The position numbers and the translations under genes were made by a program. A stretch of 64,000 nt of DNA. Source: Rhodovibrio salinarum DSM 9154. Its GTDB lineage: Bacteria; Pseudomonadota; Alphaproteobacteria; Kiloniellales; Rhodovibrionaceae. The DNA is taken from the NCBI RefSeq assembly GCF_000515255.1, contig NZ_KI911559.1, positions 3,909,347 through 3,973,346 on the forward strand. The letters run 5' to 3'. This document shows, in pieces, positions 23,365 to 39,441 of the stretch (position 1 is the stretch's first letter; each line of letters begins with the position of its first letter). A model generated the notes under the pieces. That model searched no databases and was not told the origin of the DNA. It was given only the letters and a program-made list of their open reading frames with translations.

Positions 23365-23509
23365 GACTTGAGACCTCTATCTTCTAACTTTGGCGCTCGA
23401 AGACGACCGAGGGCACGGTGGGTTTATTCCCGCCACCGGCTGATCGGCGATCGTGGAACGCTGAGGCCCTGCGATTTGCAGACCTTCTCAGGGGCATCAA
23501 AATGAGTAT

Positions 23510-23521
23510 TGAAACGTTTCA
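23510..23521. promoter_or_regulatory. Palindrome TGAAACGTTTCA upstream of deoC (candidate LacI-type operator)
   Basis: A perfect 12-bp palindrome with the central CG typical of LacI-family operators, 106 bp before the deoC start. The identical 12-mer recurs at 29223-29234 over the start of the binding-protein gene. Between the two sites lies a gene for a LacI-HTH protein, the obvious candidate to bind both. Confidence 0.65.
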
Positions 23522-23627
23522 CCAAGTGAGTCACCTTTCACCGTCTCATGCTTTCCGAGCGATCCGTGCGCCCGACGCGGGCATCCTGGAGAGCCACCGC
23601 ACGCCTCCAGATGGGCAGGCAAAGGCG

Positions 23628-24617
23628 ATGACATTAGCGAAGCTGGCACACGCGGAGAGAGAGGCGGCGCAGGCCCGTAATCCGGGATGTGCGCTTCACC
23701 TGGACTGGCTCGCCGAAATCCGCGTGAACCGCGCCGCAGCGGAGCGCCGCGCGGCAACCGTGACGACCCGGCGCAGCGTCAAGGGCGCGGCCCAGGCCGC
23801 TTGGCTGGTCAAGGCTCTTACCTGCACCGACCTGACCACGCTCAACAGCGACGACACGCCCGGCCGCGTTCGCCGGCTTTGCAGCAAGGCCCGCCGCCCC
23901 CTCGATCCCGCGTTGCTGGACGCATTGGGGCTGGGCGACCGATCGATCCAGGTGGGCGCGGTCTGCGTCTATCACGCCATGGTGCCCACTGCCGTCGCTG
24001 CCTTGGAGGGCACAAGCATTCCGGTCGCGGCGGTGGCGGCAGGTTTCCCGCACGGCCTGAGCCCGATGCGCGCACGCCGCGCGGAAGTCGAGGAGTCCGT
24101 GGCCGCCGGCGCCAGCGAGATCGACATCGTGATCTCCCGCCAACACGTCCTGCGCCGGGACTGGCAGGCGCTTTACGAGGAGGTGGCCGCATTCCGGGAA
24201 GTCTGCGGGCCCGCGCATCTGAAAGCGATCCTGGGAACCGGCGACCTGAAGACGCTGCGCGACGTCGCGCGCGCTTCGCTGGTGGCGATGATGGCCGGCG
24301 CGGACTTCGTGAAGACCTCGACCGGCAAGGAAGCGGTGAACGCCACCCTGCCGGTCGCCCTGGTGATGGCCCGCACGGTGCGCGCCTACGCCGAAGCGAC
24401 CGGCTACCGCGTCGGCTTCAAGCCCGCCGGCGGCATTTCCACCGCCAAGGACGCACTCGCCTACCAGACCCTGATGCGCGAGGAACTCGGGCGGCCCTGG
24501 CTTGAACCGGACTTGTTCCGGATCGGGGCATCCGGATTGGTCGGAGATATCGAGCGCCAGCTGACCCACTTCACCACCGGGGCCTACGCCGCCGGCCATC
24601 GACACGCCCTGGCATGA
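23628..24617 (+). CDS. deoC: Deoxyribose-phosphate aldolase (DeoC), long form
   Basis: Class I aldolase cleaving 2-deoxyribose 5-phosphate to acetaldehyde and glyceraldehyde 3-phosphate. The Schiff-base lysine is in DFVKTSTGKEA and the proton-relay lysine in GFKPAGGIST. An open frame extends to 23418, but the ATG at 23628 gives 329 residues, as in long proteobacterial DeoC proteins, and keeps the palindrome at 23510 upstream of the coding region. It is followed by an aldehyde dehydrogenase gene, the expected acetaldehyde sink. Confidence 0.92.
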   Translation: MTLAKLAHAEREAAQARNPGCALHLDWLAEIRVNRAAAERRAATVTTRRSVKGAAQAAWLVKALTCTDLTTLNSDDTPGRVRRLCSKARRPLDPALLDALGLGDRSIQVGAVCVYHAMVPTAVAALEGTSIPVAAVAAGFPHGLSPMRARRAEVEESVAAGASEIDIVISRQHVLRRDWQALYEEVAAFREVCGPAHLKAILGTGDLKTLRDVARASLVAMMAGADFVKTSTGKEAVNATLPVALVMARTVRAYAEATGYRVGFKPAGGISTAKDALAYQTLMREELGRPWLEPDLFRIGASGLVGDIERQLTHFTTGAYAAGHRHALA

Positions 24618-24664: not shown

Positions 24665-27061
24665 ATGAGCGTTGCGGACTATTTCGACATGATGGACTAC
24701 GCGCCGGCCCCGGAATCCCAGAAGGAGGCGGAAGCCTGGCTGCAGCGCCACGCGGCGGGCTTCGGTCTGTTCGTGGATGGCGCCTGGTGCGCGCCCGCAG
24801 ACGGCGGCTACCTCGACAGCCTGAACCCGGCCAGCGGCGCGCCTCTGGGACGGATCGCCCGCGCCACCGTTCAGGATGTCGATAAAGCCGTCGACGCGGC
24901 CGTGCGCGCGCAGCCAGAGTGGCAGGCGCTGGGCGGGCACGGCCGCGCCCGCGTGCTGTACGCGCTGGCGCGGCTGGTGCAGCGGCACAGCCGGCTGCTG
25001 GCCGTTCTCGAAAGCCTGGACAACGGCAAGCCGATCCGGGAAAGCCGCGACATCGATGTCCCGCTGGTCGCCCGGCATTTCTACCATCACGCGGGCTGGG
25101 CGCAGCTGCTCGACCAAGATGCAGAGCTGGCGCAACACGCCCCGGTCGGCGTGTGCGGCCAGATCGTGCCGTGGAACTTCCCGCTCCTGATGCTTGCCTG
25201 GAAGATCGCGCCTGCGCTTGCGTGCGGCAACACCGTGGTGCTGAAGCCATCGGAGCTAACCAGCCTGAGTGCGCTGAAGTTCGCGGAGCTCGCCGAACAG
25301 GCCGGCCTGCCAGCGGGCGTGCTGAACCTCGTCACCGGCGATGGACAGACCGGCGAGGCCCTGGTCGACCACCCACAGATCGACAAGATCGCCTTCACGG
25401 GCTCGACCGCCGTGGGTCGGCGGATCCGCGAACGCACCGCCGGCAGCGGCAAGGCGCTCACCCTCGAACTGGGCGGCAAGTCGCCGTTCATCGTGTTCGA
25501 CGACGCTGACCTCGACGCCGCAGTCGAAGGCGTGGTGGACGCCATCTGGTTCAATCAGGGCGAGGTCTGCTGCGCGGGGTCGCGCTTGCTGGTGCAGGAA
25601 AGCATCGCGGAAGACTTCTATAGCCGCCTGCGTCGGCGCATGGCGACGCTGCGCGTGGGGTCACCGCTCGACAAGAGCGTCGACGTCGGCGCCCTGGTCG
25701 ACGCACGCCAGCGTCAACGCATCGCGGCGATGGTCTCGGCCGGACGGGAAGCCGGCTGCACCGTCTGGCAGGCCGATGGCGAGGGACCCGAGACCGGCGC
25801 ATTTTACCCGCCGACGCTGTGTACCGACCTCGGCACCGACAATCCGCTCTGGCAGGACGAGGTGTTCGGCCCGGTCCTGGCGGCGATGACCTTCCGCACG
25901 CCGGACGAGGCGGTGCAGCTCGCCAACAACACCCGCTACGGCTTGGCCGCGAGCGTGTGGAGCGAATCGATCAGTCTGGCGCTCGACATCGTGCCGCAAC
26001 TTCAATGCGGGGTCGTGTGGGTCAACGCGACGAACATGCTGGACGCCGCCGCCCCGTTCGGCGGCTACCGCGAGTCCGGCTTCGGCCGGGAGGGCGGCCG
26101 CGAGGGGCTGTTCGAGTACCTTACGCCCCGCCTCGGCCCGTGCGTCGCGCAATCGTGGCAGGCGCCAGCGGCCTCAACTTCGGACGCAACGCCGACTGCC
26201 ACCGCCCCAGCCGCCACGATCGACCGGACGGCCAAGCATTACATTGGCGGCAAGCAGGTGCGCCCGGACGGAGGCACAAGTCGCCCGGTGCAAGGCACCG
26301 GCAGGCAGATCATCGGCGATGTTGGCGAAGGCAACCGCAAGGATATCCGAAACGCCGTCGAAGCGGCGCGCAAGGCGGGCTCCTGGTCAACGACCCCGGC
26401 CCACGGCCGCGCCCAGATCCTGTACTACCTGGCGGAGAACCTGGAGACGCGGGCACCTGAATTCGCAGACCGGCTGCGCAGCCTCACAGGCTGTGACCAG
26501 AAGGCCGCGGAGGCGGAGGTCGGGGGTGCCGTCCACCGCCTGTTCACGGCGGCCGCCTGGGCGGACAAGTTCGCCGGTGGGGTCGATGCGGTCCCGATGC
26601 GCGCCCTGGCGGTGACGCTGCGCGAACCGCTCGGCGTGCTCGCGATCGCAGCACCTGCGGAAGCCCCGCTGCTCGGGTTTGTCAGCCTGCTCGCCCCGGC
26701 GATCGCGGCGGGCAACCGCGTGGTGATCGTGCCCGCGCAAACCGCGCCGCTGTCGGCGACGGACTTCTACCAGGTTCTGGAGACATCCGACGTCCCGGAC
26801 GGGGTGGTGAATATCGTCACCGGCGACCGGGACGATCTCTCGGACGTCCTCGCCCGACATCTGGATGTGGACGGAATCTGGTACGTCGGCCCGGCCGACG
26901 GCTGCCGGCGGATCGAAGCCGCCAGCGCCGGGAACCTGAAGCAGGTCTGGACGAACCAGGGCAAGGCGGTCGACTGGCACGATCCGGCGCGGCTGGAGGG
27001 GCCGAGTTGGATGCGTCGGGCCAGCCAGACGAAGACCGTCTGGATTCCCTACGGCGCATGA
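24665..27061 (+). CDS. Two-domain aldehyde dehydrogenase, C-terminal domain degenerate
   Basis: 798-residue protein made of two ALDH domains. The first (about residues 30-500) has the glutamate motif LELGGKSPF, the catalytic cysteine in NQGEVCCAG and the C-terminal PFGGYRESGFGREGG. The second (about 520-798) keeps the fold-like segments (VGEGNRKDIRNAVEAARKA; GVLAIAAPAEAPLLGF) but lacks a catalytic cysteine motif and is shorter, so it is probably structural. Next to deoC it likely oxidises the acetaldehyde or another aldolase-derived aldehyde. Confidence 0.9.
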   Translation: MSVADYFDMMDYAPAPESQKEAEAWLQRHAAGFGLFVDGAWCAPADGGYLDSLNPASGAPLGRIARATVQDVDKAVDAAVRAQPEWQALGGHGRARVLYALARLVQRHSRLLAVLESLDNGKPIRESRDIDVPLVARHFYHHAGWAQLLDQDAELAQHAPVGVCGQIVPWNFPLLMLAWKIAPALACGNTVVLKPSELTSLSALKFAELAEQAGLPAGVLNLVTGDGQTGEALVDHPQIDKIAFTGSTAVGRRIRERTAGSGKALTLELGGKSPFIVFDDADLDAAVEGVVDAIWFNQGEVCCAGSRLLVQESIAEDFYSRLRRRMATLRVGSPLDKSVDVGALVDARQRQRIAAMVSAGREAGCTVWQADGEGPETGAFYPPTLCTDLGTDNPLWQDEVFGPVLAAMTFRTPDEAVQLANNTRYGLAASVWSESISLALDIVPQLQCGVVWVNATNMLDAAAPFGGYRESGFGREGGREGLFEYLTPRLGPCVAQSWQAPAASTSDATPTATAPAATIDRTAKHYIGGKQVRPDGGTSRPVQGTGRQIIGDVGEGNRKDIRNAVEAARKAGSWSTTPAHGRAQILYYLAENLETRAPEFADRLRSLTGCDQKAAEAEVGGAVHRLFTAAAWADKFAGGVDAVPMRALAVTLREPLGVLAIAAPAEAPLLGFVSLLAPAIAAGNRVVIVPAQTAPLSATDFYQVLETSDVPDGVVNIVTGDRDDLSDVLARHLDVDGIWYVGPADGCRRIEAASAGNLKQVWTNQGKAVDWHDPARLEGPSWMRRASQTKTVWIPYGA

Positions 27062-27079
27062 GTGGGAAGCAACGGGACA

Positions 27080-28321
27080 ATGGCACGTAAGACGATTCGC
27101 GACGTCGCTCAGCACGCCAGGGTCTCCGTCGGGACGGTGTCCAACGTCCTCAACGGTCACGGCCGCGTGGGCCCCGAGACGCGCCGCCGGGTCGAGGAGG
27201 CGATCGCCGAGCTCGGCTACCGGCCGGACACGATCGCCCAGTCCCTGATCGCGCGCCGGCGCGCTTCCAGTGCGCGCACGCTGCCGCCGAATGCTCCGCG
27301 CCTGTCCAGCGTCGGCTACCTGTCGGTCGATTTCATCACCCGCATCGATGTCCTGCCGCATCGGGACGACCGCATCACCGCCGAGAGCATCAACCGCGCC
27401 CTCGGCGGTCCGGCGGCGAACGTCGCCACCTATGCCGCCAGCCTGCACGACCGCTACCCGGTGCACAGCGAACTGATCACCGCCCTGGGCTTCGATGCCG
27501 ACAGCGAATGGGCGGTCAGCGAACTGTACGCCCGTGGGGTCAACACGATCGGGATCGACCGGCGCGCCGGCCAGCGCTTGAGCCGCGCGATCGTGATGGT
27601 CGAGCCCAACGGCAGCCGAACCATCATCAACGAACCGCTGGAACTGGGGCGGGTCAACGTCGCCCGACACCTGGGCCGCACGGAAAGCCCCCAGCAGGCC
27701 GACCAGCGCCATGCAGTGCATGTCGAAGGCTACCAGGTCGATAGCTTGGCCGACGAGCTGAAGCAGGTGCACGACCTGGGAGTGACCACCAGCATGCACG
27801 CCGCCGGCCTGCCGTCGCATTGGGCCAATGCCGACGGCTTCCGCCGCCTGACCGAGATCTTCGGTCTCCTGTTCATCAACCGGGAGCTGGCGACGCGGAT
27901 TGTCGGTATGCCCGGACGGCCCCGCGACGAGATCGTCGCCGCCATGCACGATCTGCTGACCCATTCGCCCGCCACGCAAACCAGCTGCCAGTTGATCCTG
28001 ACCCTGGACCAGGAGGGCGCAAGCTACCTGCGGGCCGATGGCAGCGGCGTGCAGATGGCCGCGCCGCCCACGCAAGTGGTCGACCTCACCGGCGCCGGGG
28101 ACACCTTGGCCGGCGTCTTCCTCGCGGTCTGGCTGAACGGCGAGGGTCCCGCGGTGGCCCTCCAAAACGCTGTCGCGGCGGCCTCAGAGGCGATCCGGCA
28201 CCAGGGTGCCCAGGGCCTCGATCTGGATGCCGCGACACTTGCCACCCTAACGGCAGCCACCGAAGCGCCGGTCGCCTTCGGCGGGCGCGCCGCATCCAAA
28301 AACGCTCAGGCGGAGGCTTAA
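27080..28321 (+). CDS. LacI-type HTH fused to PfkB-family sugar kinase
   Basis: 413-residue chimera. Residues 1-60 are a LacI DNA-binding domain (TIRDVAQHARVSVGTVSNVL, then GYRPDTIAQSLIARR with the hinge-like helix). From about residue 70 it is a ribokinase/PfkB fold: substrate-side GGPAANVATYAASL and the catalytic signature DLTGAGDTLAGVF with the base aspartate. The usual periplasmic-binding-like effector domain of LacI is replaced by a kinase-like domain, so the protein may sense its sugar or nucleotide by binding or phosphorylating it. The ATG at 27080 is preferred over an upstream GTG. Confidence 0.9.
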   Translation: MARKTIRDVAQHARVSVGTVSNVLNGHGRVGPETRRRVEEAIAELGYRPDTIAQSLIARRRASSARTLPPNAPRLSSVGYLSVDFITRIDVLPHRDDRITAESINRALGGPAANVATYAASLHDRYPVHSELITALGFDADSEWAVSELYARGVNTIGIDRRAGQRLSRAIVMVEPNGSRTIINEPLELGRVNVARHLGRTESPQQADQRHAVHVEGYQVDSLADELKQVHDLGVTTSMHAAGLPSHWANADGFRRLTEIFGLLFINRELATRIVGMPGRPRDEIVAAMHDLLTHSPATQTSCQLILTLDQEGASYLRADGSGVQMAAPPTQVVDLTGAGDTLAGVFLAVWLNGEGPAVALQNAVAAASEAIRHQGAQGLDLDAATLATLTAATEAPVAFGGRAASKNAQAEA

Positions 28322-28324
28322 CCC

Positions 28325-29131
28325 ATGGCACTGCTGGAGATGACCGGCATCGAGAAGCATTTCGGCGGGGTTACCGCCCTCAACGGTGTCGACTTCGAAA
28401 CGGACGCTGGCGAGGTCATGGCCCTGGTGGGCGACAACGGGGCGGGCAAGTCCACGCTGATCAAGACCATCGCGGGCGCACACCAGCCGGACGCCGGCAC
28501 GATCCGCCTTCAGGGCAAGGACGTCTTCATGCGCTCGCCGCAGGACGCCTGGAAACTTGGCATCGCCACGATCTTTCAGGAACTGGCGCTCGCGGACAAA
28601 ATGAACGTGCCGGACAACATCTTCCTTGGCCAGGAGCTGCGCCGGTCGATCCTCGGTATCCCGTTTCTCGACCGCAAGCGCATGCGTCAGCGCACCCGCG
28701 AGCTGCTCACCGACCTGGAGGTGCAGATCCAGGACCTCGACCTCACGGTCGAAGCCATGTCCGGCGGCCAACGCCAGGGGATCGCCATCGCCCGTGCGCT
28801 GAACCTCGACGCCGACCTGATTATCATGGACGAACCGACGGCCGCGCTGGCCGTGGCCGAGGTGCGCAAGGTACTCGACTTCATTCAACATCTGCGCGCC
28901 CAGGGCAAGGGCGTGATCCTGATCTCGCACAACATCCAGGACGTCTTCGCCGTGGCCGACCGGGTCACGGTGATGCGCCAGGGTCAGGTGGAAGCGGTGC
29001 GCCGGATCGACGCGACGACGCCGGAAGAGGTGATCGCCCTGATCACCGGGGCGCGCGCGGTCGACCTGTCCCACCGCCCCGCGCACAACACCGGTGGCGA
29101 TGCCGCCGCTCAGCCGACGCCCGCCGGGTAA
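28325..29131 (+). CDS. ABC transporter ATP-binding protein (CUT2, FrcA/RbsA half-size type)
   Basis: 268-residue single-cassette ATPase of a ribose/fructose-type importer: Walker A VGDNGAGKST, signature MSGGQRQGIAIA, Walker B LIIMDEPTAAL, switch ILISHN. RbsA proteins carry two cassettes; this one carries one, like FrcA. It starts three bases after the LacI-PfkB gene stop. Confidence 0.9.
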   Translation: MALLEMTGIEKHFGGVTALNGVDFETDAGEVMALVGDNGAGKSTLIKTIAGAHQPDAGTIRLQGKDVFMRSPQDAWKLGIATIFQELALADKMNVPDNIFLGQELRRSILGIPFLDRKRMRQRTRELLTDLEVQIQDLDLTVEAMSGGQRQGIAIARALNLDADLIIMDEPTAALAVAEVRKVLDFIQHLRAQGKGVILISHNIQDVFAVADRVTVMRQGQVEAVRRIDATTPEEVIALITGARAVDLSHRPAHNTGGDAAAQPTPAG

Positions 29132-29221
29132 CGCCCGGCCCGCGTACCGTCCGTGACCGGACGCAAAAACGCCGGCCGTAAAGGCCGTGCCCGACCCTCA
29201 CGAAAGCAGGAAAGGCTCACG

Positions 29222-30208
29222 ATGAAACGTTTCATTGCCGGCATTCTCGGCGCATCGGTCGCCCTCGGCGCGGCGGCCAGCATGGCGAGCGCGCAAGACG
29301 CCCCGCGCGTCGGCTTCGTCCCGCAGATCAAGGGTATCCCGTACTACGTCGCGATGCGCAAAGGCGCCGACCGCGCGGCCGAACGCTTCGGCGTCGACTA
29401 CCAGCAGCAGGGGCCGACCAGCACCAACGCCTCGGACCAGCTCCGCGTCTTCCAGGGGTTCGTGAACCGCGGCTTTGATGTGGTCGCCGTCAGCCCGGTG
29501 GATGCCAGCAGCCTGAAGCCCGCGATCAAGCGCGCGGAGGCCCGCGGCACCCACGTGATCACCTCGGATGCCGATGCGCCGGACAGCGCCCGCACGTTTT
29601 TCGTCGCCCAGGCCCTTGACCGGGAACTCGGTGCCACGGTCGCCGACGAACTGATCGCGCGCACCGGCGAGGATGCCAAGATCGCGATCATTTCCGACGC
29701 GCCCACCATCCAATCGCTGAACAACTGGATCGCTGCGATCAAGCAGCGGGTGGAGGACGCCTACCCGTCGGTCGAAATCGTTTCGACCCAGCACACCAAC
29801 GGCACCACCCAGCAGGCCTACCAGTACGCCACCGACGCGATGACGCGGCATCCAGACCTGGATGCGATTATCGGCATCGCCTCGACCACCTGCCCGGGCG
29901 TCGCCCAGGCGGTGAGCGACGCCGACAAGATCGGTGAGGTCATCACGACAGGCTACTGCTCGCCCAACACCGTGCGCGACTACATCAAGTCGGGCGCGAT
30001 GCCCTTCTCGGTGCTCTGGAACCCGGCCGATCTCGGCTACCTGACGGTTTGGGCGTCCAAGCAGCTGGTCCAGGGCAAGGACTTCGAGGAGAGCATGAAC
30101 GTGCCCGGACTTGAGAATCCCGTGCGCTGGCTGCCGGAGCGCCAAATCCTGCTGCTCGGCCCGCCGATGGTCTTCACCAAAGAGAACATCGACGCGTTCG
30201 ACTTCTAG
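29222..30208 (+). CDS. Sugar ABC transporter periplasmic binding protein (RhaS/LsrB-like)
   Basis: 328-residue type I binding protein with a Sec signal peptide (MKRFIAGILGASVALGAAASMASAQD, cleavage likely after ASA near residue 24). The order of segments VGFVPQIKGIPYYVAMRKGA, GFDVVAVSPVDA and IISDAPTIQSLNNW matches rhamnose/autoinducer-2-type binding proteins more than RbsB. The ligand is not certain. The start codon region overlaps a candidate operator palindrome. Confidence 0.88.
   Translation: MKRFIAGILGASVALGAAASMASAQDAPRVGFVPQIKGIPYYVAMRKGADRAAERFGVDYQQQGPTSTNASDQLRVFQGFVNRGFDVVAVSPVDASSLKPAIKRAEARGTHVITSDADAPDSARTFFVAQALDRELGATVADELIARTGEDAKIAIISDAPTIQSLNNWIAAIKQRVEDAYPSVEIVSTQHTNGTTQQAYQYATDAMTRHPDLDAIIGIASTTCPGVAQAVSDADKIGEVITTGYCSPNTVRDYIKSGAMPFSVLWNPADLGYLTVWASKQLVQGKDFEESMNVPGLENPVRWLPERQILLLGPPMVFTKENIDAFDF
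29223..29234. promoter_or_regulatory. Second copy of palindrome TGAAACGTTTCA, over the binding-protein start
   Basis: Identical to the 12-mer at 23510-23521. It begins inside the ATG of the binding-protein gene (codons Met-Lys-Arg-Phe). A regulator bound here could block transcription into the transporter genes. It could also be a coding coincidence, since Lys-Arg-Phe is common in signal peptides. Confidence 0.5.
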
Positions 30209-30278
30209 CCTCCACTGCCAAAGCGGGCGGGGACGGTCCCTCGGCGTCCCCGCCCACCCCCTGCAATAGGTTTGCGAC

Positions 30279-31259
30279 ATGGCCCTGACTGAGACGGCCA
30301 CGCCCAGCTGGCTACAACGGCTGCTGCACGCCAAGCGCGAGCTCGTGCTGCTTGTAGCGATCGTGCTGATCGGCGGCTTCTTCGCGCTGAGTTCGCCGTA
30401 CTTCCTCACGGTCGACAACCTCACGACGACGCTGCGCAACAGCGTCGACCTCGCGATCATCAGCGCCGGCATGACGCTCGTGATCATCTCCGGATCGATC
30501 GACGTCTCGGTCGGCGGGGTGCTCGCGGTCGCGGCGATCTTCGTCGGACGCGGGTTCCAGTGGGGCCTGCCCGCGCCGGCGGTGGTGCTGCTCGGCCTCG
30601 GCGTCGGCACCTTGCTGGGCCTGGTGAACGGGACCGTGGTCGCGAAGGCGAAGGTTCCGCCGATCATCGCAACCCTGGGCACGATGTACGTCTTCCTCGC
30701 CGTGCTGTTCCTGGTGATCGGTGGGGAATGGATCTCGGGCCTGCCGGACACGCTCTCGCCGCTTGTCTCCGGCGATTTTCTGGGTCTGCCGGTGCCTCTC
30801 TACCTGATCGCCGGGGTGTATGGCGTCTGCTACCTGCTGCTGCGCCATCACAGCTTCGGCCGGCACCTCTACGCCATCGGCAGTAACGAACACGCCGCCC
30901 GGCTCGCGGGCATCGCCGTCGACCGGGTGAAGATGCAGGTCTACGCCCTGCTCGGCTTCCTCGCCGGAAGCGGCGCGCTGATCTACGTCGCGCGCCTGCG
31001 CAACGTGGAGGTCAACATCGGCACGACGATCGCCCTGGAAGCGATCGCGGCCGTCATCCTGGGCGGCGCCAACATCCGTGGCGGCGTCGGCTCGCTTCTG
31101 GGCGCGCTTCTGGGCGTGCTGTTCATCAAGATGATTCAAAACGGGCTCGTTCTGATCGGCGTGTCCTCGCTTTGGGAAACGGTGGTGATCGGCGGTCTGT
31201 TGATCGTCGTCCTAACCGCCGACGCACTGAAACACGGCGGACCACAACGGGCGCAGTAG
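30279..31259 (+). CDS. Sugar ABC transporter permease 1 (CUT2)
   Basis: 326-residue membrane permease of the ribose/AI-2 class with eight to ten hydrophobic segments and the family region GSNEHAARLAGIAVDRVKMQVY near residue 200. It works with the permease that follows two bases downstream, the single-cassette ATPase and the binding protein. Confidence 0.9.
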   Translation: MALTETATPSWLQRLLHAKRELVLLVAIVLIGGFFALSSPYFLTVDNLTTTLRNSVDLAIISAGMTLVIISGSIDVSVGGVLAVAAIFVGRGFQWGLPAPAVVLLGLGVGTLLGLVNGTVVAKAKVPPIIATLGTMYVFLAVLFLVIGGEWISGLPDTLSPLVSGDFLGLPVPLYLIAGVYGVCYLLLRHHSFGRHLYAIGSNEHAARLAGIAVDRVKMQVYALLGFLAGSGALIYVARLRNVEVNIGTTIALEAIAAVILGGANIRGGVGSLLGALLGVLFIKMIQNGLVLIGVSSLWETVVIGGLLIVVLTADALKHGGPQRAQ

Positions 31260-31261
31260 AG

Positions 31262-32272
31262 ATGACCACAAGCTCGATTGATACCGCGCGCGGCGCCCGC
31301 CGGGCCGCCGGCGCCCTGCTGCGGCACCTGGAGAACCGCTTCGCCCTGCTGCTCGTTCTGTGGGGCGTGGCGATCTGCGTGATGTCGCTGCTATCGCCCT
31401 ACTTCCTGCAGGTCAGCACCCTGCCCTACTTCCTACAGTACATCCCGGTGCTGGGTCTGCTGGGCATGGGACAAACGCTGGTCATGCTCGCTGGCGGCCC
31501 CGGCATCGACATCTCCGTCGGCTCGGCGATGTCGCTGTCCGGTGTTTTCCTGGGCTGGCTGCTCGGAAGCCTGGACGTCCCGATCCTGATCGCCTGCCTC
31601 GCCTGTTTGGCGTTCGGCGCCGGCCTCGGCTTTTTCAACGGGGTGCTGGTCAACGTCGTCGGCATCCCCTCGCTGATGGCGACACTGGCGACCTACTTCG
31701 CGTTCGGCGGGCTGGCGCTCGCGCTCACCGGCGGCCGGCCGCAAACCGGATTTCCGGACGCCTTTGCATGGCTCGGGGCGCCGGGATGGCTGGACATTCC
31801 CAACCACGTCTTCTTCGTCTTCGTGCCCGTGGCCGTGGTGCTGCACATCGGGCTGTCGCGCACGGTCGCGGGCCGACACGTTTACGCCTGCGGCAACAAC
31901 GAGAAGGCCGCCCGGCTGCTCGGCATCAAGGTCGACGCCATCCGGCTCAGCCTCTACACGCTCTCCGGCGCGCTTGCCGGGCTCGCCGCGATCGTCAGCG
32001 CGTCCTGGTTGATGTCGGCAAGCCCGGATGCCGGCGAGGGACTGGAGCTGCTGTCGGTCACCATCGCCGTTTTGGGCGGCACCCACATCTTTGGCGGCGA
32101 AGGCGACATCCGGGGCACCGTCCTGGCGATCCTGATCGTCACCACGCTGCAGACCGGCCTGGAACTGGCGGGAATTTCCATGGCCTGGCAGCTCGGCGTG
32201 ATCGGCGGCCTGATGATCCTCAGCGTCGCGGCCACCCAGGCGGTGCGCCGGCGACGGGCGGCGGGCCGATGA
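31262..32272 (+). CDS. Sugar ABC transporter permease 2 (CUT2)
   Basis: 336-residue permease homologous to the preceding one (family region CGNNEKAARLLGIKVDAIRL). The ATG at 31262 follows the upstream stop by two bases. Its TGA overlaps the ATG of the PfkB kinase gene (ATGA), which couples uptake and phosphorylation genetically. Confidence 0.9.
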   Translation: MTTSSIDTARGARRAAGALLRHLENRFALLLVLWGVAICVMSLLSPYFLQVSTLPYFLQYIPVLGLLGMGQTLVMLAGGPGIDISVGSAMSLSGVFLGWLLGSLDVPILIACLACLAFGAGLGFFNGVLVNVVGIPSLMATLATYFAFGGLALALTGGRPQTGFPDAFAWLGAPGWLDIPNHVFFVFVPVAVVLHIGLSRTVAGRHVYACGNNEKAARLLGIKVDAIRLSLYTLSGALAGLAAIVSASWLMSASPDAGEGLELLSVTIAVLGGTHIFGGEGDIRGTVLAILIVTTLQTGLELAGISMAWQLGVIGGLMILSVAATQAVRRRRAAGR

Positions 32273-33183
32273 GCGATCCCGTGCTCTTGTGCATCGGCGA
32301 CATCGACCGCGACGTGATGATTTCGGTGCCCAGCCTGCCGACCTTCGACGGCAAGGTCAGCGGTCGGCCACTGGGTGAGTGGCCAGGGGGAATGGCCGCC
32401 AACGTGGCGATGGCCGCCACCCGGCTGGACACCCGGACCCGCCTGCTTGGCGTGGTCGGTGAGGATGCGACCGGCGAACGGATCCTGGCCGGGCTCGACC
32501 GCGCGGGGATCGATGTCTCGCCCTGCCGCCTGCTCCCCGACAGCGAGACGTTCACCTCGCTCGTGTTCCTGACGGACAGCGGAGAGAAGGCGCTGGTGCG
32601 CGTCGAGACGCCCGCATTCATGCCGGACCCGGCGGATATCACGCCAGAGGTGATGGCCGGCGCCAGCTACGTCCACATCAGCTACGGCGCGCCCGCGTTG
32701 GCGAACGCGGTCGTCGAGGCCGCGGAACGCGTCGGTGTCCCGGTCTCCATGGACCTGGAGCTCGCCGACCTGCCGTCCGACCGCACGGATTTGGCGCGCC
32801 TGCTGCCGCGGCTCGACCTCCTGTTCGTCAACCGCGCCATGCGTGAGGCGCTCGACGACCTGCGCACGCCGCGGCCCGACGGGCCTGCGCTGGTCACCAC
32901 GCTCGGCGCGCAGGGCGCGCGCTACGAGGACGCCGACGGCGCGGTCCATCAACGCGGCATCGCGACCACACCGAAAGACACCACAGGCGCCGGTGACTGT
33001 TTCGCCGGGGCCTTCCTGAGCGCACGGATGTCCGGCGAGTCGCCCAAGACGTGCCTGATGTTCGCGAATGCGGCCGCCGCGCTGTCCACTCAGGCCTACG
33101 GCGCGCAGGCCGCGTTGCCGACCCGAACGGATGTCGCGGCCGTACTTGCCCGCCAGCACGCCGACACGAACACGATCACCTGA
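32269..33183 (+). CDS. PfkB-family carbohydrate kinase
   Basis: 304-residue ribokinase-fold kinase: N-terminal LCIGDIDRDVMISVPSLP, substrate motif GGMAANVAMAATRL and the catalytic signature DTTGAGDCFAGAF. It is the free-standing counterpart of the kinase domain fused to the LacI HTH upstream. With DeoC in the island it could be a deoxyribokinase; with the eIF2B-like isomerase next door it could phosphorylate another pentose or deoxysugar. Confidence 0.88.
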   Translation: MSDPVLLCIGDIDRDVMISVPSLPTFDGKVSGRPLGEWPGGMAANVAMAATRLDTRTRLLGVVGEDATGERILAGLDRAGIDVSPCRLLPDSETFTSLVFLTDSGEKALVRVETPAFMPDPADITPEVMAGASYVHISYGAPALANAVVEAAERVGVPVSMDLELADLPSDRTDLARLLPRLDLLFVNRAMREALDDLRTPRPDGPALVTTLGAQGARYEDADGAVHQRGIATTPKDTTGAGDCFAGAFLSARMSGESPKTCLMFANAAAALSTQAYGAQAALPTRTDVAAVLARQHADTNTIT

Positions 33184-33204
33184 GACCGACGAAGGACGCC
33201 CCCC

Positions 33205-34218
33205 GTGGAAGGCCGAAGCCAGCTTTACGACCGACTGCTCACCGACGCCGGCCTGGCGGCGCCGGATGACACCGAGCGCCACTACCTCTGGCAGATCGTC
33301 GACGAAGGCGTGCTCGGCGCCAGCAAACATGTCGCGCTGAGCCAGGAATTGATGCGCTACATCCTGGATACCGCCACGCCCGGCGATCTCGAGGCGCCGG
33401 ACGACAGCCAGGATCCCCCCGCCCTTCGCCGCGCACGCCTGGCCGGGGAAACGATCGCCCGCACGCGCGGCGGTGACGCCCCCGTCGTCGCGAACGCGAT
33501 CGCTTGGCTGACCACGGGGCTCGACAGCCAGCCGCCTGGCCAGCGGGTCGCGACCCTGCGCGCGCGGATGACACGATGGCAGGACGAGGCCGAGCAACGC
33601 ACGCACCGCCTGACCGCGGTTGCGGGATATCTGCTGGCCGGCTGCCCGCGGCTGCTGTTGTTCGATTACTCCAGCACGGTGGCCAAGGTGGTGAAGGCCC
33701 TGGCCGAGCGGGGAACCGCACAGCGTCTGGTGATCCCGGAAAGCCGCTGCATCGCCGGCGGATGGAGCTACGTCGAAGAACTCGCAAGCCTTGGCCTGCC
33801 GATCGACTACGTCGTCGACGCGGCGATCGACCACGCCGTCGCCAACAGCGATGCCGTGCTGTTCGGTATCGAGAGCCTCTACTGCGACGGCAGTTTCCTG
33901 AACACGGTCGGCAGCCGCCCCTATGCCGAACGCGCCCGGGCCGCGGGCCGCACGGCCTACGCCTGCGGCGATCTGTTCAAGCTCGACCGGCGCAGCTACC
34001 GCGGCGCTTTCAAGGCGCCGCGGGTTCGGGACTTTGACGCCCGCCTGCTGACCGACCCCACCGGGGTTCACGCAGCGGACCTGTCCACGCGGAGCCCGGA
34101 ACTGGAACGCGTGCCGCCGGACTCCTTCGACGGCCTGATCACCGATCAAGGGTTCGTCACGCCCCAGGCGGTCTGGGGTCTCGGCCGGGAGCTGTTCGGC
34201 CCGGCGCCCATCACCTGA
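33205..34218 (+). CDS. eIF2B/MtnA-like putative sugar-1-phosphate isomerase
   Basis: 337-residue protein that I place in the eIF2B-related Rossmann family, which includes methylthioribose-1-phosphate isomerase and ribose-1,5-bisphosphate isomerase. Supporting segments are the helical N-terminal third, VIPESRCIAGG (cf. the family ESRPxxEG strand), and DAVLFGIESLYCDGSFLNTVGSRPYAERARAAG (split over residues 214-246; cf. the family GAD...G...N..GT..LA). Similarity is distant and the catalytic Cys/Asp pair is not certain. It starts with GTG after GAAGGA and lies between kinase and SIS genes. Confidence 0.65.
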   Translation: MEGRSQLYDRLLTDAGLAAPDDTERHYLWQIVDEGVLGASKHVALSQELMRYILDTATPGDLEAPDDSQDPPALRRARLAGETIARTRGGDAPVVANAIAWLTTGLDSQPPGQRVATLRARMTRWQDEAEQRTHRLTAVAGYLLAGCPRLLLFDYSSTVAKVVKALAERGTAQRLVIPESRCIAGGWSYVEELASLGLPIDYVVDAAIDHAVANSDAVLFGIESLYCDGSFLNTVGSRPYAERARAAGRTAYACGDLFKLDRRSYRGAFKAPRVRDFDARLLTDPTGVHAADLSTRSPELERVPPDSFDGLITDQGFVTPQAVWGLGRELFGPAPIT

Positions 34219-34255
34219 CCTGCCTGCGGTTCCCTCTACAGCCTGGAGTGCCCTC

Positions 34256-35341
34256 ATGGCCAACGCGACGATGCGCGCAGACATCGAACGCCAGCCCGCC
34301 GTACTTGCAGAGATCCTGCCCAAGCTGCGCGCAGCCGCGCAGCAAGCGGTTCCGAAAACCCCCGGCGGGCGAATCTGGGCGGGCGGCTGCGGCGACAGCC
34401 TGTTCGCCGCGCAAGCCGCAGCCCCCTACTTCGCCGCCACGGGTCTGCCTTACCGCGCCGGCAGCGCGCTGGAACTCGGCTTCCAGCACGACGGGCCGCA
34501 AGAGGGCGATCATGCCGTCCTGATGTCGATCTCCGGCGGCACCATGCGCACAGTGGAGTGCGCGCGTCGCCTACAGGCGCGTGGCGTCCGGGTGATCGCG
34601 GTGACCTGTGCTCCGGGCTCGGCCCTGAACCAGGCTGCGGCTGCGAGCATGCAGCTCGATTACGAACCGATGCCCCGCACGACACCGCACACCACCGATT
34701 ATACCGTGACGCTTTTGGCCCTCGCGGCCCTGGCCGAAGCCTTCGCCGGTCACGAGATCCCGGAACTGGAGACACTGCCCGCGCGCACCCGCATCGCCCT
34801 GCCGATCTGTTTCGAAGGGAGCCGCGACACGCTTCTGGGGCACTACGACCCGGACTTGCGGGCCCGCTACTTCTTCCTCGGCGGGCTGGATGCCTATGGC
34901 ACCGCAGCGTACGCCGCCGCCAAGTTCCATGAGGCGGGTGGTCTCCCAGCACTCGCGGCTGAGAGCGAGAACTTCGTCCACGGCATGAACTTCATGCTTG
35001 AACAGACGGACCTCGTCGTCCCCATCGTCGATCCCGGACCGGCGGGCTTCCGGGCCGGCGAACTCGCCCGCGAACTCCCGGCCCTGGCGGAAACACGGGC
35101 CATTCTTGGCACAACGGAGGACTCTCCGGAGGTATTGGACCGTCCGCTGGTTGACCTGCGTGGCGAGGTCCCCCTGCATTTTCCGATCCTCTCCGCGCTG
35201 GCCGTCCAGGCCCTGGCCCTGACCGTGGCCGAGCTTGTCTGTCCCGACCTTGAAGAACCGCGCGCCGGCTTCGCCGATGGCGAGCGCCACGCGGCCGTTC
35301 AAAGCCGGCTGATGAAGCAAGGCCGCACGGTATTTCGGTAA
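34256..35341 (+). CDS. SIS-domain protein (double phosphosugar isomerase/binding domain)
   Basis: 361-residue protein with two SIS modules as in GlmS/AgaS C-termini: IWAGGCGDSLFAAQAAAPYF (residues 38-57) and ISGGTMRTVECARRL in the first, then FFLGGLDAYGTAAYAAAKFHE in the second. Such proteins isomerise or deaminate phosphorylated (amino)sugars. It is the last gene of the second sugar island and probably acts on the same phosphosugar pool. Confidence 0.82.
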   Translation: MANATMRADIERQPAVLAEILPKLRAAAQQAVPKTPGGRIWAGGCGDSLFAAQAAAPYFAATGLPYRAGSALELGFQHDGPQEGDHAVLMSISGGTMRTVECARRLQARGVRVIAVTCAPGSALNQAAAASMQLDYEPMPRTTPHTTDYTVTLLALAALAEAFAGHEIPELETLPARTRIALPICFEGSRDTLLGHYDPDLRARYFFLGGLDAYGTAAYAAAKFHEAGGLPALAAESENFVHGMNFMLEQTDLVVPIVDPGPAGFRAGELARELPALAETRAILGTTEDSPEVLDRPLVDLRGEVPLHFPILSALAVQALALTVAELVCPDLEEPRAGFADGERHAAVQSRLMKQGRTVFR

Positions 35342-35442: not shown

Positions 35443-36894
35443 CTAATCCAATGCCAGCGGGGGAGTCGCGCCATCGGTCTCCAGCTCCCACCACGCCCGC
35501 CATGTATCGGCGCGGCGTTCGAGCACCAGGTAGTTGCGTTGTGGCGTATAGATCATCGACTGACCGGGCAAAGGGTGCAGGCGGATCGGTTGGTCCGGCA
35601 GCGGCGACTCGCCAAGCCGTGCAAGAGCGCTGAGCATCCGGACGTACAGCTTGGGCGGCGGCGGATGCGCGATTCCAGAGGCCACGAGCTGGTGTAACGG
35701 ACCATTCGGCGTGGCCAGCGTGCCCCGGGTCGCCAGATGGATCTCGCCGGACAGGACGGTGACCCGGCTGCCGTCCGTCTTGTGACGATCCGACAGCGTT
35801 TTCAGAAAGCGGCGCCACTCCGCCCGGTGGGCGCGGCTCTGCCACTGGTCGCGCAGATCGTCCTCGTACTTCTGGGCCTTCGGGAGCAGTTGCATGGCGG
35901 CCTCAACCCACGACAGACGCGGGCCGAGCGCGGGCACGCTCGACAACAGCAGGATACGACCGTCGCCGCAGCGCGCGAGCGCGTCCTGGAAGGCGGACCA
36001 GCCGGATTCGGCCATCACCCGCGTCGGCCGGCGCTGCGCGCGCAGATCGGGCGCGACGACGTCGAGCCCAGGCAGCCGCGCATGCCAGCTCAGGCTGTGG
36101 CCACTGGGATCCACGCACGTCGCCGGATGATCGTCCGGACCGGCCCCTAGCTGAAACAACCGGAACTGCTCGCGCGCCGCGTCGAACAGCGCCCAGCCAA
36201 TGGGCGAGTCCAGCTTGGCCGGCGCAAGCGATCCCCAACCGTCGCAGATATCGTGGTCGTCCCACATCGCAAGCGACGGCACACGCGCCATCAGCCATCC
36301 GATCTCCGGCTGGCTGTAGAGCTCCAGGTAGCGGCGGAACAGCTTCGTCGCCAACGTCTCCCGCAGTTCCCACCGATCCCGGTTACAGACCGGCGGCTTG
36401 TTGCTGGCTTCGGACCAAGCGCGCACCTCGGGCTCGGACTCGACCACCTCGTCGGCGTAAAGCTGGTCGCCGCCATGGAGTAGCAGGTGGAAGGGCTGCT
36501 GCGCATGCTGCGCGGCCAGACGCGCCCACAGGGCGTTGCGCGCGACGCGCGGACGCTCGCGGTCGCCGTCCTCCTGACCGTTGCAGGAGACGAAGGCGAT
36601 GCGAAGGTCCCCGCGCGGGTCCGCGGCGAGCGGGTAGTCGACACCGTCGAACCGGTAACTGGCCGTCGCGCCCGCCGGGACAGAAAAGTCATAGAGCCAG
36701 GCACGGCAGCCCGCACACTGCAGAGCGCACCTGGCCGCAACCGCCCCGTCGGGCCCAGACAGCTCCGGCGCGGGCGCGCCATCCGGTCGGACCGCCAGCA
36801 CGCTTAGGGACAGGCGCTCGCCATCGTGATCCCGCAAGAACAGGATCGGGCCAGCGCTGGTTTCCACGTCAGTCATGGCGGGCGGGTTGGACAC
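35443..36894 (-). CDS. PhoD-like metallophosphatase
   Basis: 483-residue protein with PhoD-family metal-site segments: IAFVSCNGQ, LLLHGGDQLYADE near residue 135, and LAMWDDHDICDGWG near residue 210, plus SGEIHLATRG near 378. There is no signal peptide, so it appears cytoplasmic, unlike classic secreted PhoD. It converges on the SIS gene and is unlinked to it. The start may be six codons later (MTDVE). Confidence 0.82.
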   Translation of the reverse strand: MSNPPAMTDVETSAGPILFLRDHDGERLSLSVLAVRPDGAPAPELSGPDGAVAARCALQCAGCRAWLYDFSVPAGATASYRFDGVDYPLAADPRGDLRIAFVSCNGQEDGDRERPRVARNALWARLAAQHAQQPFHLLLHGGDQLYADEVVESEPEVRAWSEASNKPPVCNRDRWELRETLATKLFRRYLELYSQPEIGWLMARVPSLAMWDDHDICDGWGSLAPAKLDSPIGWALFDAAREQFRLFQLGAGPDDHPATCVDPSGHSLSWHARLPGLDVVAPDLRAQRRPTRVMAESGWSAFQDALARCGDGRILLLSSVPALGPRLSWVEAAMQLLPKAQKYEDDLRDQWQSRAHRAEWRRFLKTLSDRHKTDGSRVTVLSGEIHLATRGTLATPNGPLHQLVASGIAHPPPPKLYVRMLSALARLGESPLPDQPIRLHPLPGQSMIYTPQRNYLVLERRADTWRAWWELETDGATPPLALD

Positions 36895-37060
36895 GTAAGG
36901 CTGCGCAATCTGTCTGGGAAAGCGATGGATGGTTTGACGGCCCCGGCCTGTCGACCGTCGCCGGAGCGGGAAGCTTCCCTATCGGATGAAATAAATCGCT
37001 CAACGCACGTCCGCCATCCCGAACCAAGTCGCTGTCTCCGGCACGAGACGTGATCCCCGA

Positions 37061-38335
37061 TCAGGATCGGGCTGGGACGTGGCCTCCCTGCGCCCGCAAT
37101 TCAGCATCCACAAGGTCGAGGAGGTTCCCCGAACCGAGGAGGTGACCGCGCACCCCCGCCGCCGCCGCCGCCTCGACGTCGCCCGGTCGGTCGCCAACCA
37201 AGAAACTCCGGTCGAGGTCGGTTGGCCAATCCCGCAGCGCCGCGGCGATCGACCCGGCGCCTGGCTTTCTGCAGGAACACGCGCAGGTGTAAGCTGGCAC
37301 GTTGCCTTGCGGGTGGTGCGGACAATAGTAAATGGCGTCCACGTGCGCGCCGGTCGCGATCAGCTCCCGCTGCATCCAGGCGTGCAGCGCATCGACATGC
37401 GCGGTGTCGTAGTAGCCGCGCGCCACGCCGGCCTGGTTGGTCACCACGACGACCCGATAGCCGTGATCGTTCAGCCGCTTGATGGCTGTCTTCGCGCCAG
37501 GGAGCCAGTCGAACGCCTCGACCGTGTGCACGTAGCCGTGATCGACGTTCAACGTGCCATCGCGGTCCAGAAAGGCGGTCGGCCGCCGCAGCGCCGCCAC
37601 CGCGCTCTGGGCGCGCGCGAGATTGTCGGACCCGCCAAGGTCGAGAAAGAAACCGTCATAGACGCGACCGGCCAACGCGCCTTCCTCGGCAAGGCGGGGA
37701 AACAGATCCTGCGCCAGCGCGCCCGCCCCTTCCGGCAATCGATCGAGTGCGCGATCTGATAGCAGATAGACCCCACCGTCACTCGCTCCGGGTCCGCCAC
37801 CAAGCTGCGCCGCCCAGGCCGCCAGCCGGTCGCCTGTCAGTTCCATCCGGTCGTCGCGGCCAGTGGCGGCGCCCCGGCGCAACGCGACCGTCGCGAGCGC
37901 GCCGGCCGAGCGGTGCAAACTCGCCAGATCATGCAGGTTCACATCGAACAGGCTGTCGCCGTTGAGCACGAAGAAGCGTTCTGCCAGCGCGCCCTGCCGG
38001 CAGGCGAAGGCGAGCGCGTCGCCAGCCCCGAGCGCCTGCGGCGTGCACAGGCAACGCACCTGGGCACCGTTGATCCGGGTACCGTCATAGCGCGCCCAAA
38101 CCGCCTGAGCGTGGGCGCCGCACAGCAACAGCAGGTCGGCAATCCCGTGACGGGCGATTTCGCCCAGCAGATGGTCGAGGAAGGGCCCCCCACCGATATC
38201 GGACAACGACGGCGGCGGGGTATCGTCAAGACGGTGCCCGTCGCCAACCCACACGACGGCCTGCCCGGGCGCGGGCGACGGCGCGGCGGGCTGGACCGGG
38301 CTGCGATGCGGACAGGACGACGCGGCGGGAGGCAT
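37061..38335 (-). CDS. Nucleotidyltransferase-like domain fused to GmhB-type HAD phosphatase
   Basis: 424-residue fusion. Residues about 25-255 resemble sugar-1-phosphate nucleotidyltransferases (HddC/RmlA type: FFVLNGDSLFDVN; SDGGVYLLSDRALD), but the N-terminal GGxGTR nucleotide loop is replaced by VGDGHRLDDTP, so catalysis is doubtful. Residues about 256-420 are a HAD-IIIA phosphatase with FLDRDGTLN, VVVTNQAG, the CPHHPQG...CACSCRKP zinc loop and VGDRPGDVEAA, all as in GmhB (heptose 1,7-bisphosphate phosphatase). A role in heptose/surface polysaccharide synthesis fits the divergent fcl gene. The exact start is uncertain. Confidence 0.82.
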   Translation of the reverse strand: MPPAASSCPHRSPVQPAAPSPAPGQAVVWVGDGHRLDDTPPPSLSDIGGGPFLDHLLGEIARHGIADLLLLCGAHAQAVWARYDGTRINGAQVRCLCTPQALGAGDALAFACRQGALAERFFVLNGDSLFDVNLHDLASLHRSAGALATVALRRGAATGRDDRMELTGDRLAAWAAQLGGGPGASDGGVYLLSDRALDRLPEGAGALAQDLFPRLAEEGALAGRVYDGFFLDLGGSDNLARAQSAVAALRRPTAFLDRDGTLNVDHGYVHTVEAFDWLPGAKTAIKRLNDHGYRVVVVTNQAGVARGYYDTAHVDALHAWMQRELIATGAHVDAIYYCPHHPQGNVPAYTCACSCRKPGAGSIAAALRDWPTDLDRSFLVGDRPGDVEAAAAAGVRGHLLGSGNLLDLVDAELRAQGGHVPARS

Positions 38336-38472
38336 GGGCGAAAGTGGCGGGCACCGTTTCCAGGGTCGGACGCACGCGACACGCTTGCTGCGCCCGCGCT
38401 AGGTGTAGCACAAGCAGACGACCACGCCAGCGCACGTGCGCTGGTGCCCGGGCGTAACCGATGGGGATCGGG

Positions 38473-39441
38473 ATGGAAACGGGCGACAAGATTTATGTGG
38501 CCGGCGATCGGGGCCTGGTGGGATCGGCAATCACTCGGCGTCTGGCGGCGGCGGGCTACACCAATCTGATCGGGCGCAGCCGCCACGCGCTCGACTTGAC
38601 GGATCAGCAAGCCGTGCGCGCCTTTTTCGAGGCTGAACGCCCCGACCACGTATTCATGTGCGCGGCCAAGGTCGGCGGTATCCGGGCCAACAACAGCTAT
38701 CCGGCCGACTTCATCCATTTGAACCAGCAGATCCAAACCAACGTCATCGATGCGGCTTGGCGCAGCGGTGTCCGCAAATTCCTGTTCATGGGCTCAAGTT
38801 GCATCTACCCGCGCGACTGCCCGCAGCCGATCAAAGAAGAGTATCTGCTGACCGGACCACTCGAGGTCACGAACGAGGGATACGCCATCGCCAAGATCGC
38901 CGGCCTGAAGACCTGTATGGCGCTTCGCCAGCAGTATGGCTTCGACGCCATCAGCGTGCTGCCCGCGAACCTGTATGGACCCGGCGACAACTTCGACCTC
39001 GATCATGCCCACGTCATCCCAGCCCTGATCCGCCGCTTTCATACGGCGAAGGAAAACGGCGACCGGCACGTCACGGTGTGGGGAAGCGGCACGGCGCGGC
39101 GGGAGTTCCTGTTCGTCGACGACCTGGCCGACGCCTCGATCTTCGTCATGAACCACTACACGGGCGCGCAGCACCTCAATGTCGGCTCTGGAAAAGATCT
39201 ACCGATTGCCGACCTCGCCCGTTTGATTGCGGAGATTGTCGGGTTCGAGGGTGAGATCGTGCAAGACCCCAGTATGCCCGACGGCACGCCACGCAAACGG
39301 CTGGATTCCAGCCGGCTCCGGGACCTAGGCTGGACACCATCGGTTGACCTGCGCACCGGACTGACACGAACCTACGCTTGGTTCCTCGACAACCGCACCC
39401 GGCTGCGCGAAGGCCGCGGGCACGCGCTATCGCATGGGTAG
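38473..39441 (+). CDS. fcl: GDP-L-fucose synthase
   Basis: Short-chain dehydrogenase that epimerises and reduces GDP-4-keto-6-deoxymannose to GDP-L-fucose. It shows the Rossmann motif IYVAGDRGLVGSAI, GSSCIYP with the catalytic serine, YAIAKIAG with the Y-x3-K pair, and the substrate region NLYGPGDNFD. 322 residues from the ATG at 38473, preceded by GGGGA; an ATG four codons earlier lacks an RBS. No gmd gene is in view. Confidence 0.92.
   Translation: METGDKIYVAGDRGLVGSAITRRLAAAGYTNLIGRSRHALDLTDQQAVRAFFEAERPDHVFMCAAKVGGIRANNSYPADFIHLNQQIQTNVIDAAWRSGVRKFLFMGSSCIYPRDCPQPIKEEYLLTGPLEVTNEGYAIAKIAGLKTCMALRQQYGFDAISVLPANLYGPGDNFDLDHAHVIPALIRRFHTAKENGDRHVTVWGSGTARREFLFVDDLADASIFVMNHYTGAQHLNVGSGKDLPIADLARLIAEIVGFEGEIVQDPSMPDGTPRKRLDSSRLRDLGWTPSVDLRTGLTRTYAWFLDNRTRLREGRGHALSHG

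Follow-up and report, generated by a model that had tools for sequence, protein, structure and literature searches.

eIF2B-alpha probably evolved from sugar-phosphate isomerases, whose pocket it would have retained for sensing a metabolite. Isomerases that share its fold include ribose-1,5-bisphosphate isomerase (R15Pi; TIGR00511), known from Pyrococcus horikoshii (PH0208) and Thermococcus kodakarensis, and the aldose-1-phosphate isomerases MtnA and DrdI. In the drd system for 5-deoxyribose disposal, the enzymes described beside the MtnA-like isomerase are a class II aldolase and a kinase resembling methylthioribose kinase (PMC6079011). Here we describe a protein of the same fold from Rhodovibrio salinarum DSM 9154, encoded in a 64,000-nucleotide stretch of contig NZ_KI911559.1 (positions 3,909,347 to 3,973,346 of the forward strand; hereafter the window, to which coordinates refer). 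Its gene lies in an operon for sugar uptake together with a PfkB kinase, a double-SIS protein and a probable regulator in which a LacI-type helix-turn-helix (HTH) is fused to a PfkB fold.

Parts of this arrangement have precedents. A PfkB kinase beside a double-SIS protein with conserved Glu and His recalls the FrlD/FrlB and FraD/FraB modules, from which the window operon differs in its additional eIF2B-like protein and in the distance of its SIS protein from theirs. DNA-binding domains joined to enzyme folds are known from BzdR, described as an HTH with a shikimate-kinase-like domain (PMC3602430), and from MocR, with a GntR HTH and an aminotransferase (PMC5320631), whereas here a single HTH type and a single operator go with two different folds. 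As in the LacI family, the HTH is of the PF00356 type and the operator is a palindrome centred on CG; one account defines that family by a sensor of the periplasmic-binding-protein type (PMC4052901), whereas the sensor here would be PfkB or IF-2B. The principle of an HTH joined to an enzyme fold is thus already known, and in the literature searched (open-licence papers only) we found no description of LacI-PfkB fusions, of LacI-eIF2B fusions or of the operator that they share.

Our preferred reading, which we hold with slightly less than even confidence, is that this is a catabolic operon under a LacI-type regulator with an enzyme-fold sensor, in which the eIF2B-like protein converts a sugar 5- or 6-phosphate.

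A conserved core operon

Two short peptide patterns, taken from an alignment and run against 84,980 species genomes, recovered 16 related loci, which is a lower bound, and every one of them is alphaproteobacterial. The hosts are Rhodovibrio sodomensis (whose eIF2B-like protein is 76% identical to that of the window), Skermanella, Rhizobium, Phyllobacterium, Devosia, Mesorhizobium, Labrenzia, Aureimonas, Pelagibacterium and Kaistia, as well as one unclassified Rhizobiaceae metagenome-assembled genome (MAG) and two Rhodospirillales MAGs (two MAG contigs turned up twice, as L009/L010 and again as L025/L024, and each was counted a single time). Eight core genes are complete and in the same order in 13 of the 16 loci: LacI-PfkB, ATPase, binding protein, permease, permease, PfkB, eIF2B and SIS. 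Locus L017 is cut by a contig end and keeps the same last six core genes, the binding protein being partial; the two Rhodospirillales loci (L024, L025) are of a different type. Since the order recurs in 13 of 16 related loci, the adjacency of these genes is not a matter of chance.

A preliminary description of the window had listed PfkB, eIF2B-like and SIS genes in that order, preceded by a transporter, an aldehyde dehydrogenase (ALDH) and a DeoC aldolase. Pfam confirms the three genes, the upstream genes are likewise present on the same strand, and the LacI-HTH::PfkB fusion at 27062-28321, which that description had not named, comes in addition and is among the most informative genes of the operon.

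Fold and pocket of the eIF2B-like protein

The eIF2B-like protein (33205..34218, + strand, GTG start) has 337 residues and, in agreement with the family to which it had been assigned, matches PF01008 (71.0 bits against a cut-off of 22.4; E-value 1.3e-19). An AlphaFold2 model built from 17 sequences (mean predicted local distance difference test, pLDDT, 87.5; predicted template modelling score 0.83) has the R15Pi fold. Against a structural library with entries for RpiA and for the eIF2B group, in which a missing match says nothing, it aligned with the P. horikoshii enzyme (5yfx) at Z 30.0 (root-mean-square deviation 2.6, 307 residues aligned), with MtnA (2yvk) at Z 25.1 and with eIF2B-alpha (7kma_C) at Z 24.9.

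The ligand residues reported for PH0208 (PMC5789824) were mapped onto the protein through a profile alignment, and residues were counted in the 16 loci plus the window (alignment A3, 17 rows). Catalytic Cys135 of PH0208 becomes Asp154 in the window numbering, and catalytic Asp204 becomes Glu223, in 17 of 17 sequences. Most of the side chains that hold the 1-phosphate are also replaced in all 17, Arg22 by Leu (a position read one residue past the displayed alignment), Gln166 by Gly and Lys215 by Thr (15) or Ala (2), with Arg65 retained. The 5-phosphate residues Ser137 and Lys240 and the sugar residue Asn214 are retained throughout (17/17). The protein therefore resembles R15Pi in its fold and in its 5-phosphate and sugar ligands, and differs at both catalytic positions and at Arg22, Gln166 and Lys215. 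Because the 1-phosphate ligands are mostly replaced and the others kept, the pocket suggests a sugar 5- or 6-phosphate with a free C1 and not a sugar 1-phosphate.

Judged by these residues, the protein is not a standard MtnA or R15Pi, although the preliminary description had expected chemistry of that type. The MtnA encoded in the same genome, which served as a control, keeps the Cys, the Asp and the NK motif (THCNAG, GTDR and NKIGT, by eye) and adjoins a frame resembling methylthioadenosine phosphorylase. Compared with MtnA and DrdI, with which it has the fold in common, the window protein is without the catalytic Cys and Asp and has NT for NK, and its partners are PfkB and SIS proteins where theirs are a methylthioribose-kinase-like kinase and a class II aldolase.

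That earlier account envisaged an isomerase opening a sugar 1-phosphate, followed by an aldolase, by analogy with 5-deoxyribose salvage. Close to it stands a scheme of the archaeal pentose-bisphosphate type, in which a ribose-1-phosphate kinase and an R15Pi would yield ribulose-1,5-bisphosphate for DeoC or the SIS protein. The best NCBIfam matches agree with such a pair, being the haloarchaeal ribose-1-phosphate kinase for the PfkB protein and TIGR00511 for the eIF2B-like protein, and in haloarchaea rbsK and the R15Pi gene are reported to share operons and to feed a phosphatase and a FucA-like aldolase (PMC9700705). The scores lie far under the curated cut-offs, however (159.4 against 330 bits for the kinase and 67.1 against 314.1 bits for the isomerase), no sequence keeps the catalytic Cys and Asp or more than one of the four 1-phosphate side chains, and the eight core genes hold no phosphorylase, phosphatase, Rubisco or FucA-like aldolase; we regard this scheme as quite improbable. 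Residues and partners led us to set aside both the route through ribose-1-phosphate and the analogy with 5-deoxyribose, the window having a PfkB kinase and DeoC in place of the drd kinase and aldolase. DeoC, moreover, converts 2-deoxyribose-5-phosphate to acetaldehyde and glyceraldehyde-3-phosphate, not to dihydroxyacetone phosphate. A route through a sugar-1-phosphate isomerase and then an aldolase is thus not supported. What stands of the proposed analogy is an eIF2B-fold protein within a kinase-containing sugar-uptake operon, for which we found no counterpart described in the literature searched; the chemistry and the aldolase step do not, and as a whole the earlier interpretation is partly supported.

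Two probable enzyme-fold regulators and a shared putative operator

The probable regulator of the window operon (27062..28321, +; alternative ATG start at 27080) matches the LacI HTH, PF00356, at residues 11-56 (6e-17, 61.6 bits) and the sugar kinase family, PF00294, at residues 81-385 (2.4e-34). Its kinase domain may still be active, since the GAGD and GG motifs are kept in 13 of 13 aligned sequences (alignment A4, which omits L017, L021, L024 and L025).

In the two Rhodospirillales MAGs it is the eIF2B-like protein itself that carries an N-terminal LacI HTH. These two fusions are 80% identical, have reading frames free of stop codons or N, and share the altered pocket of the free-standing protein; their genes are followed by a SIS gene, a gene for a second SIS protein and one for a PfkB kinase. 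The L025 fusion matches PF00356 with 54.6 bits and IF-2B with 87.8 bits. A model of the LacI-eIF2B protein (mean pLDDT 83.7) is confident in its eIF2B part and of moderate confidence in the HTH helices, where two rows of the alignment cover the HTH. By Pfam, neither the window LacI-PfkB nor the L025 fusion has an effector domain of the periplasmic-binding-protein type, only PfkB and IF-2B, respectively. The fusion is the only LacI HTH match in the L025 genome (n=1), and among 30 LacI loci from three genomes its HTH is closest to that of the window LacI-PfkB (59.6% over 57 residues, 66.2 bits).

Both types of regulator share the palindrome TTGAANCGNTTCAA, with its central CG. In 12 of 12 LacI-PfkB loci other than L011, a site with no more than one mismatch to TTGAARCGYTTCAA lies about 70 bases or less from the regulator start, and sixteen loci together hold 22 sites with at most two mismatches (shuffled loci: mean 0.95, largest 3). 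In both L024 and L025 the palindrome lies after the LacI-eIF2B gene and before the first SIS gene, and in the L025 genome TTGAANCGNTTCAA occurs just once, immediately 3' of the fusion gene. Over 14 genomes we counted 18 sites of TTGAANCGNTTCAA. Every genome has the operon site and 11 have no other; the remaining four sites fall outside the operon (two in G801, one each in G804 and G814). A reversed control pattern gave five sites in four of the 14 genomes.

LacI-PfkB homologues also occur on five PLSDB plasmids. On two of these, from Rhizobium (L056, L058), LacI-PfkB follows an exact operator and heads a different operon, made up of genes for a GATase1_like protein, the ABC importer and an M20 deacylase; neither a SIS nor an eIF2B-like protein is encoded within the plasmid stretch (the search did not extend to the chromosomes of these strains). 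Since operator and LacI-PfkB occur together in stretches without an eIF2B gene, this regulator does not need the eIF2B-like protein. In Roseivivax (L057) LacI-PfkB is accompanied by BtpA, a ribokinase and TenA, and the operator is not beside LacI-PfkB. Genes of the BtpA/SgcQ and TenA families lie near LacI-PfkB or the core operon at L019:14679-15536, L057 and L059.

Enzyme or sensor

These fusions bring forward a second explanation, in which the eIF2B-like protein is no enzyme at all, but a sugar-phosphate sensor like eIF2B-alpha that modulates LacI-PfkB or one of the enzymes by contact and has become wired to DNA in the two MAGs. We give it real, if minority, weight. eIF2B-alpha has the fold in common and has also lost the catalytic Cys, and it is reported to hold fructose-6-phosphate by Tyr130, Glu198, Asn208 and Lys234 (PMC8187479). 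If a constant match offset (query 149 = chain 124) holds throughout, these would correspond to Tyr155, Glu223, Asn233 and Lys259 of the window protein, so that the Asp-to-Glu change and the Glu/Asn/Tyr/Lys pattern would both follow eIF2B-alpha. Fusions with the same pocket exist, moreover, and in the L025 genome the fusion is the sole LacI HTH and the operator appears once, just after its gene. Against a pure sensor, Asp154 is invariant where eIF2B-alpha has Ala, stretches with LacI-PfkB and the same operator lack the eIF2B gene, and in the core operon this gene sits between two enzyme genes. Unlike eIF2B-alpha, this family is also bacterial, and it is partnered by a kinase, by a SIS protein or by a LacI domain.

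An eIF2B gene accompanies PfkB and SIS genes in 16 of the 16 loci, the PfkB protein being only distantly similar in L024 and L025. Its gene partners are thus PfkB and SIS rather than the LacI-PfkB regulator, and for this reason a metabolic role is favoured for the free-standing protein. An isomerase with an Asp/Glu pair is therefore ranked first, with a pure sensor close behind, because gene association favours metabolism while the fusions show wiring to DNA. It is also possible, and we put it forward tentatively, that the eIF2B fold has turned into a bacterial sugar-phosphate sensor, in parallel with eukaryotes, as the effector domain of a LacI-type repressor in two Rhodospirillales lineages, and that the window protein, too, senses a sugar phosphate, perhaps besides an enzyme activity, its partner repressor having a sugar-kinase effector. 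If so, a single HTH and a single operator would have been joined to two different enzyme folds from one pathway. This bacterial branch, with its altered pocket and with members that are free-standing or fused to a DNA-binding domain, would offer a simple system for testing the change from enzyme to sensor.

The kinase and the SIS protein

The free-standing PfkB/ribokinase-family sugar kinase (32269..33183, +; PF00294, 2.4e-39) retains the GAGD and GG motifs in 15 of 15 sequences (two further alignments, A6 and A7, have 15 and 14 rows). The SIS protein (34256..35341, +; PF01380, 6.9e-18, two stretches) keeps Lys223, Glu226 and His242 in all 13 rows of alignment A5 (without L015, L024, L025 and L026), the Glu and His being 16 apart; among the PDB relatives listed, Glu and His are found in five of five and Lys in four of five. 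These residues correspond to Lys485, Glu488 and His504 of GlmS. The protein is a member of the double-SIS group, to which GlmS, glucosamine-6-phosphate deaminase and deglycases also belong.

Profile matches of the SIS protein include 3eua (a putative fructose-amino-acid-6-phosphate deglycase), 8eol (a glucosamine-6-phosphate deaminase entry) and similar chains. They fit a pathway like those for fructoselysine or fructose-asparagine, with a kinase and a deglycase acting on an Amadori-type or other N-glycosylated compound; here the SIS protein would remove the amine and the eIF2B-like protein would be accessory. The catalytic residues of FraB, sought in PMC12051030, did not turn up there. That related operons carry M20 deacylases or neighbour PuuE-like allantoinases would suit an amide or amine aglycone. 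The matches are nevertheless distant (best 67 bits) and span the whole SIS isomerase group, and the core genes contain no asparaginase or amidase, so we think this route rather unlikely. PuuE-type allantoinase genes were seen near SIS genes at L024:18189-20335, above the family cut-off, and at L060:4402-5397, below it; L024 also has an M20 deacylase.

Proposed pathway

On our preferred reading, a sugar-phosphate-converting eIF2B-like protein in a catabolic operon, the ABC importer would take up one sugar or glycosyl compound, as its family suggests, and PfkB would phosphorylate it, most likely on a terminal 5- or 6-hydroxyl. The double-SIS protein, whose motif is kept, could isomerise, deaminate or deglycate the phosphosugar. 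From its pocket residues by alignment, the eIF2B-like protein would bind a sugar 5- or 6-phosphate with a free C1 and most likely interconvert aldose and ketose, its Asp and Glu serving as the acid-base pair much as carboxylates do in RpiA. The LacI-type repressor, with a PfkB fold in place of the usual periplasmic-binding-protein-like sensor, is predicted to act at TTGAANCGNTTCAA; in the two MAGs the same kind of operator would belong to LacI-eIF2B, where the eIF2B fold would do the sensing, with or without an enzyme activity of its own. DeoC and ALDH would have been added in the lineage of the window and placed under the same operator. The operon predicts an undescribed route of sugar uptake in soil and plant-associated Alphaproteobacteria, and the operator tells which genes belong to it.

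Several points weigh against this scheme. It is hard to see the need for a second isomerase if isomerisation of the sugar phosphate already falls to the SIS protein. The 1-phosphate ligand Arg65 is retained, and in PH0208 the changes Cys135 to Ser and Asp204 to Asn are reported to abolish activity (PMC5789824), so that Asp and Glu at the catalytic positions may equally signal a loss of catalysis. On the regulatory side, the link between the HTHs is modest, as the next LacI HTH is nearly as close to that of L025 (48.3%, 61.2 bits). The motif was derived from these loci, so its presence in them is by construction and only its rarity elsewhere is independent evidence. At one mismatch it is not specific in the R. 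salinarum genome, with three sites (two of them elsewhere in that genome, at 270323, inside an open frame, and at 3403811) against two for the reversed control, and two of 100 shuffles of the window reach the two sites that it contains.

Layout of the window operon and the DeoC/ALDH add-on

Ten + strand genes with small gaps occupy 23628-35341 of the window. The core begins with LacI-PfkB and continues with the single-domain ATP-binding protein of the importer (28325..29131, +; PF00005), an LsrB/RhaS-like periplasmic sugar-binding protein (29222..30208, +; PF13407) and two permeases, both PF02653 (30279..31259, +, and 31259..32272, +, the latter with a start inferred within a frame open from 31172). 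The binding protein falls below the NCBIfam cut-offs for LsrB (189.1 bits) and RhaS (186.1 bits), and autoinducer-2 was set aside as a substrate, the LsrB cut-off being 384 bits. An operator-like palindrome, ATGAAACGTTTCAT (29222..29235), overlaps the start codon of the binding-protein gene; it has two mismatches and is kept in L011. Promoter and terminator scans were uninformative.

Upstream of LacI-PfkB lie deoC (23628..24617, +; start inferred, frame open from 23418), whose product passes the equivalog cut-off of TIGR00126 (147.0 against 117.3 bits), and a gene for an ALDH of 798 residues (24665..27061, +; PF00171, 3.4e-204, two ALDH stretches). The preliminary description had made both into steps of the route. 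They occur 5' of the core in two of 13 complete loci, those of Rhodovibrio (L011) and Aureimonas (L021), and not in the visible flanks of the other 11, of which L020 shows only 389 bases and L018 3.8 kb. In Aureimonas they form a separate unit behind a DeoR-type regulator of its own, without a matching operator. DeoC and ALDH are thus an add-on to the core operon. An operator-like site stands 5' of deoC in both the window and L011, the one in the window being TTGAAACGTTTCAC (23509..23522; 106 bases 5' of the likely deoC start, one mismatch to TTGAARCGYTTCAA), and DeoC and ALDH therefore seem to have joined the LacI-PfkB regulon in this lineage.

Distribution in genome samples

The system is rare in even genome samples. 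At E <= 1e-15 the eIF2B-like protein is found in three of 385 genomes of the class (its own, G304 and G383) and, of 398 genomes of the phylum, in its own only; two of the five genomes from the order of G304 have it. A set of 143 relatives gave, besides the own genome, just three distant eIF2B-like matches at E <= 1e-5, and there was no match to the protein among PLSDB plasmids at that threshold, nor among viral contigs. LacI-PfkB occurs in one of the 385 class genomes at E <= 1e-50, its own, and the SIS protein in five at E <= 1e-30. SIS relatives in G181 and G187 (L060, L061) have other neighbours, with no eIF2B-like open reading frame or operator within the examined stretch.

Two distant matches were rejected as close relatives once their loci had been read. 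These genes (L004:1330-2226 and L005:1357-2316; IF-2B 177.6 and 171.3 bits) belong to another alphaproteobacterial eIF2B-like family, which has Ser at the Cys position and retains the GAD and NK motifs. By eye, they adjoin frames resembling MutS and AdoMet synthetase.

The operon region of the window is flanked by transposase genes at 20980-22362 (+; DDE_Tnp_1_4) and 43177-44826 (-; rve plus Mu-transpos_C_2). Between the operon and the second of these, 35443-39441 holds unlike genes for a PhoD-like phosphatase, a HAD/nucleotidyltransferase fusion and an NAD-dependent sugar epimerase. A HipA-like protein at 40340-41588 (-) is split between frames, its N-terminal part and a portion of HipA_C at 40929-41588 and the remainder of HipA_C at 40340-40906.

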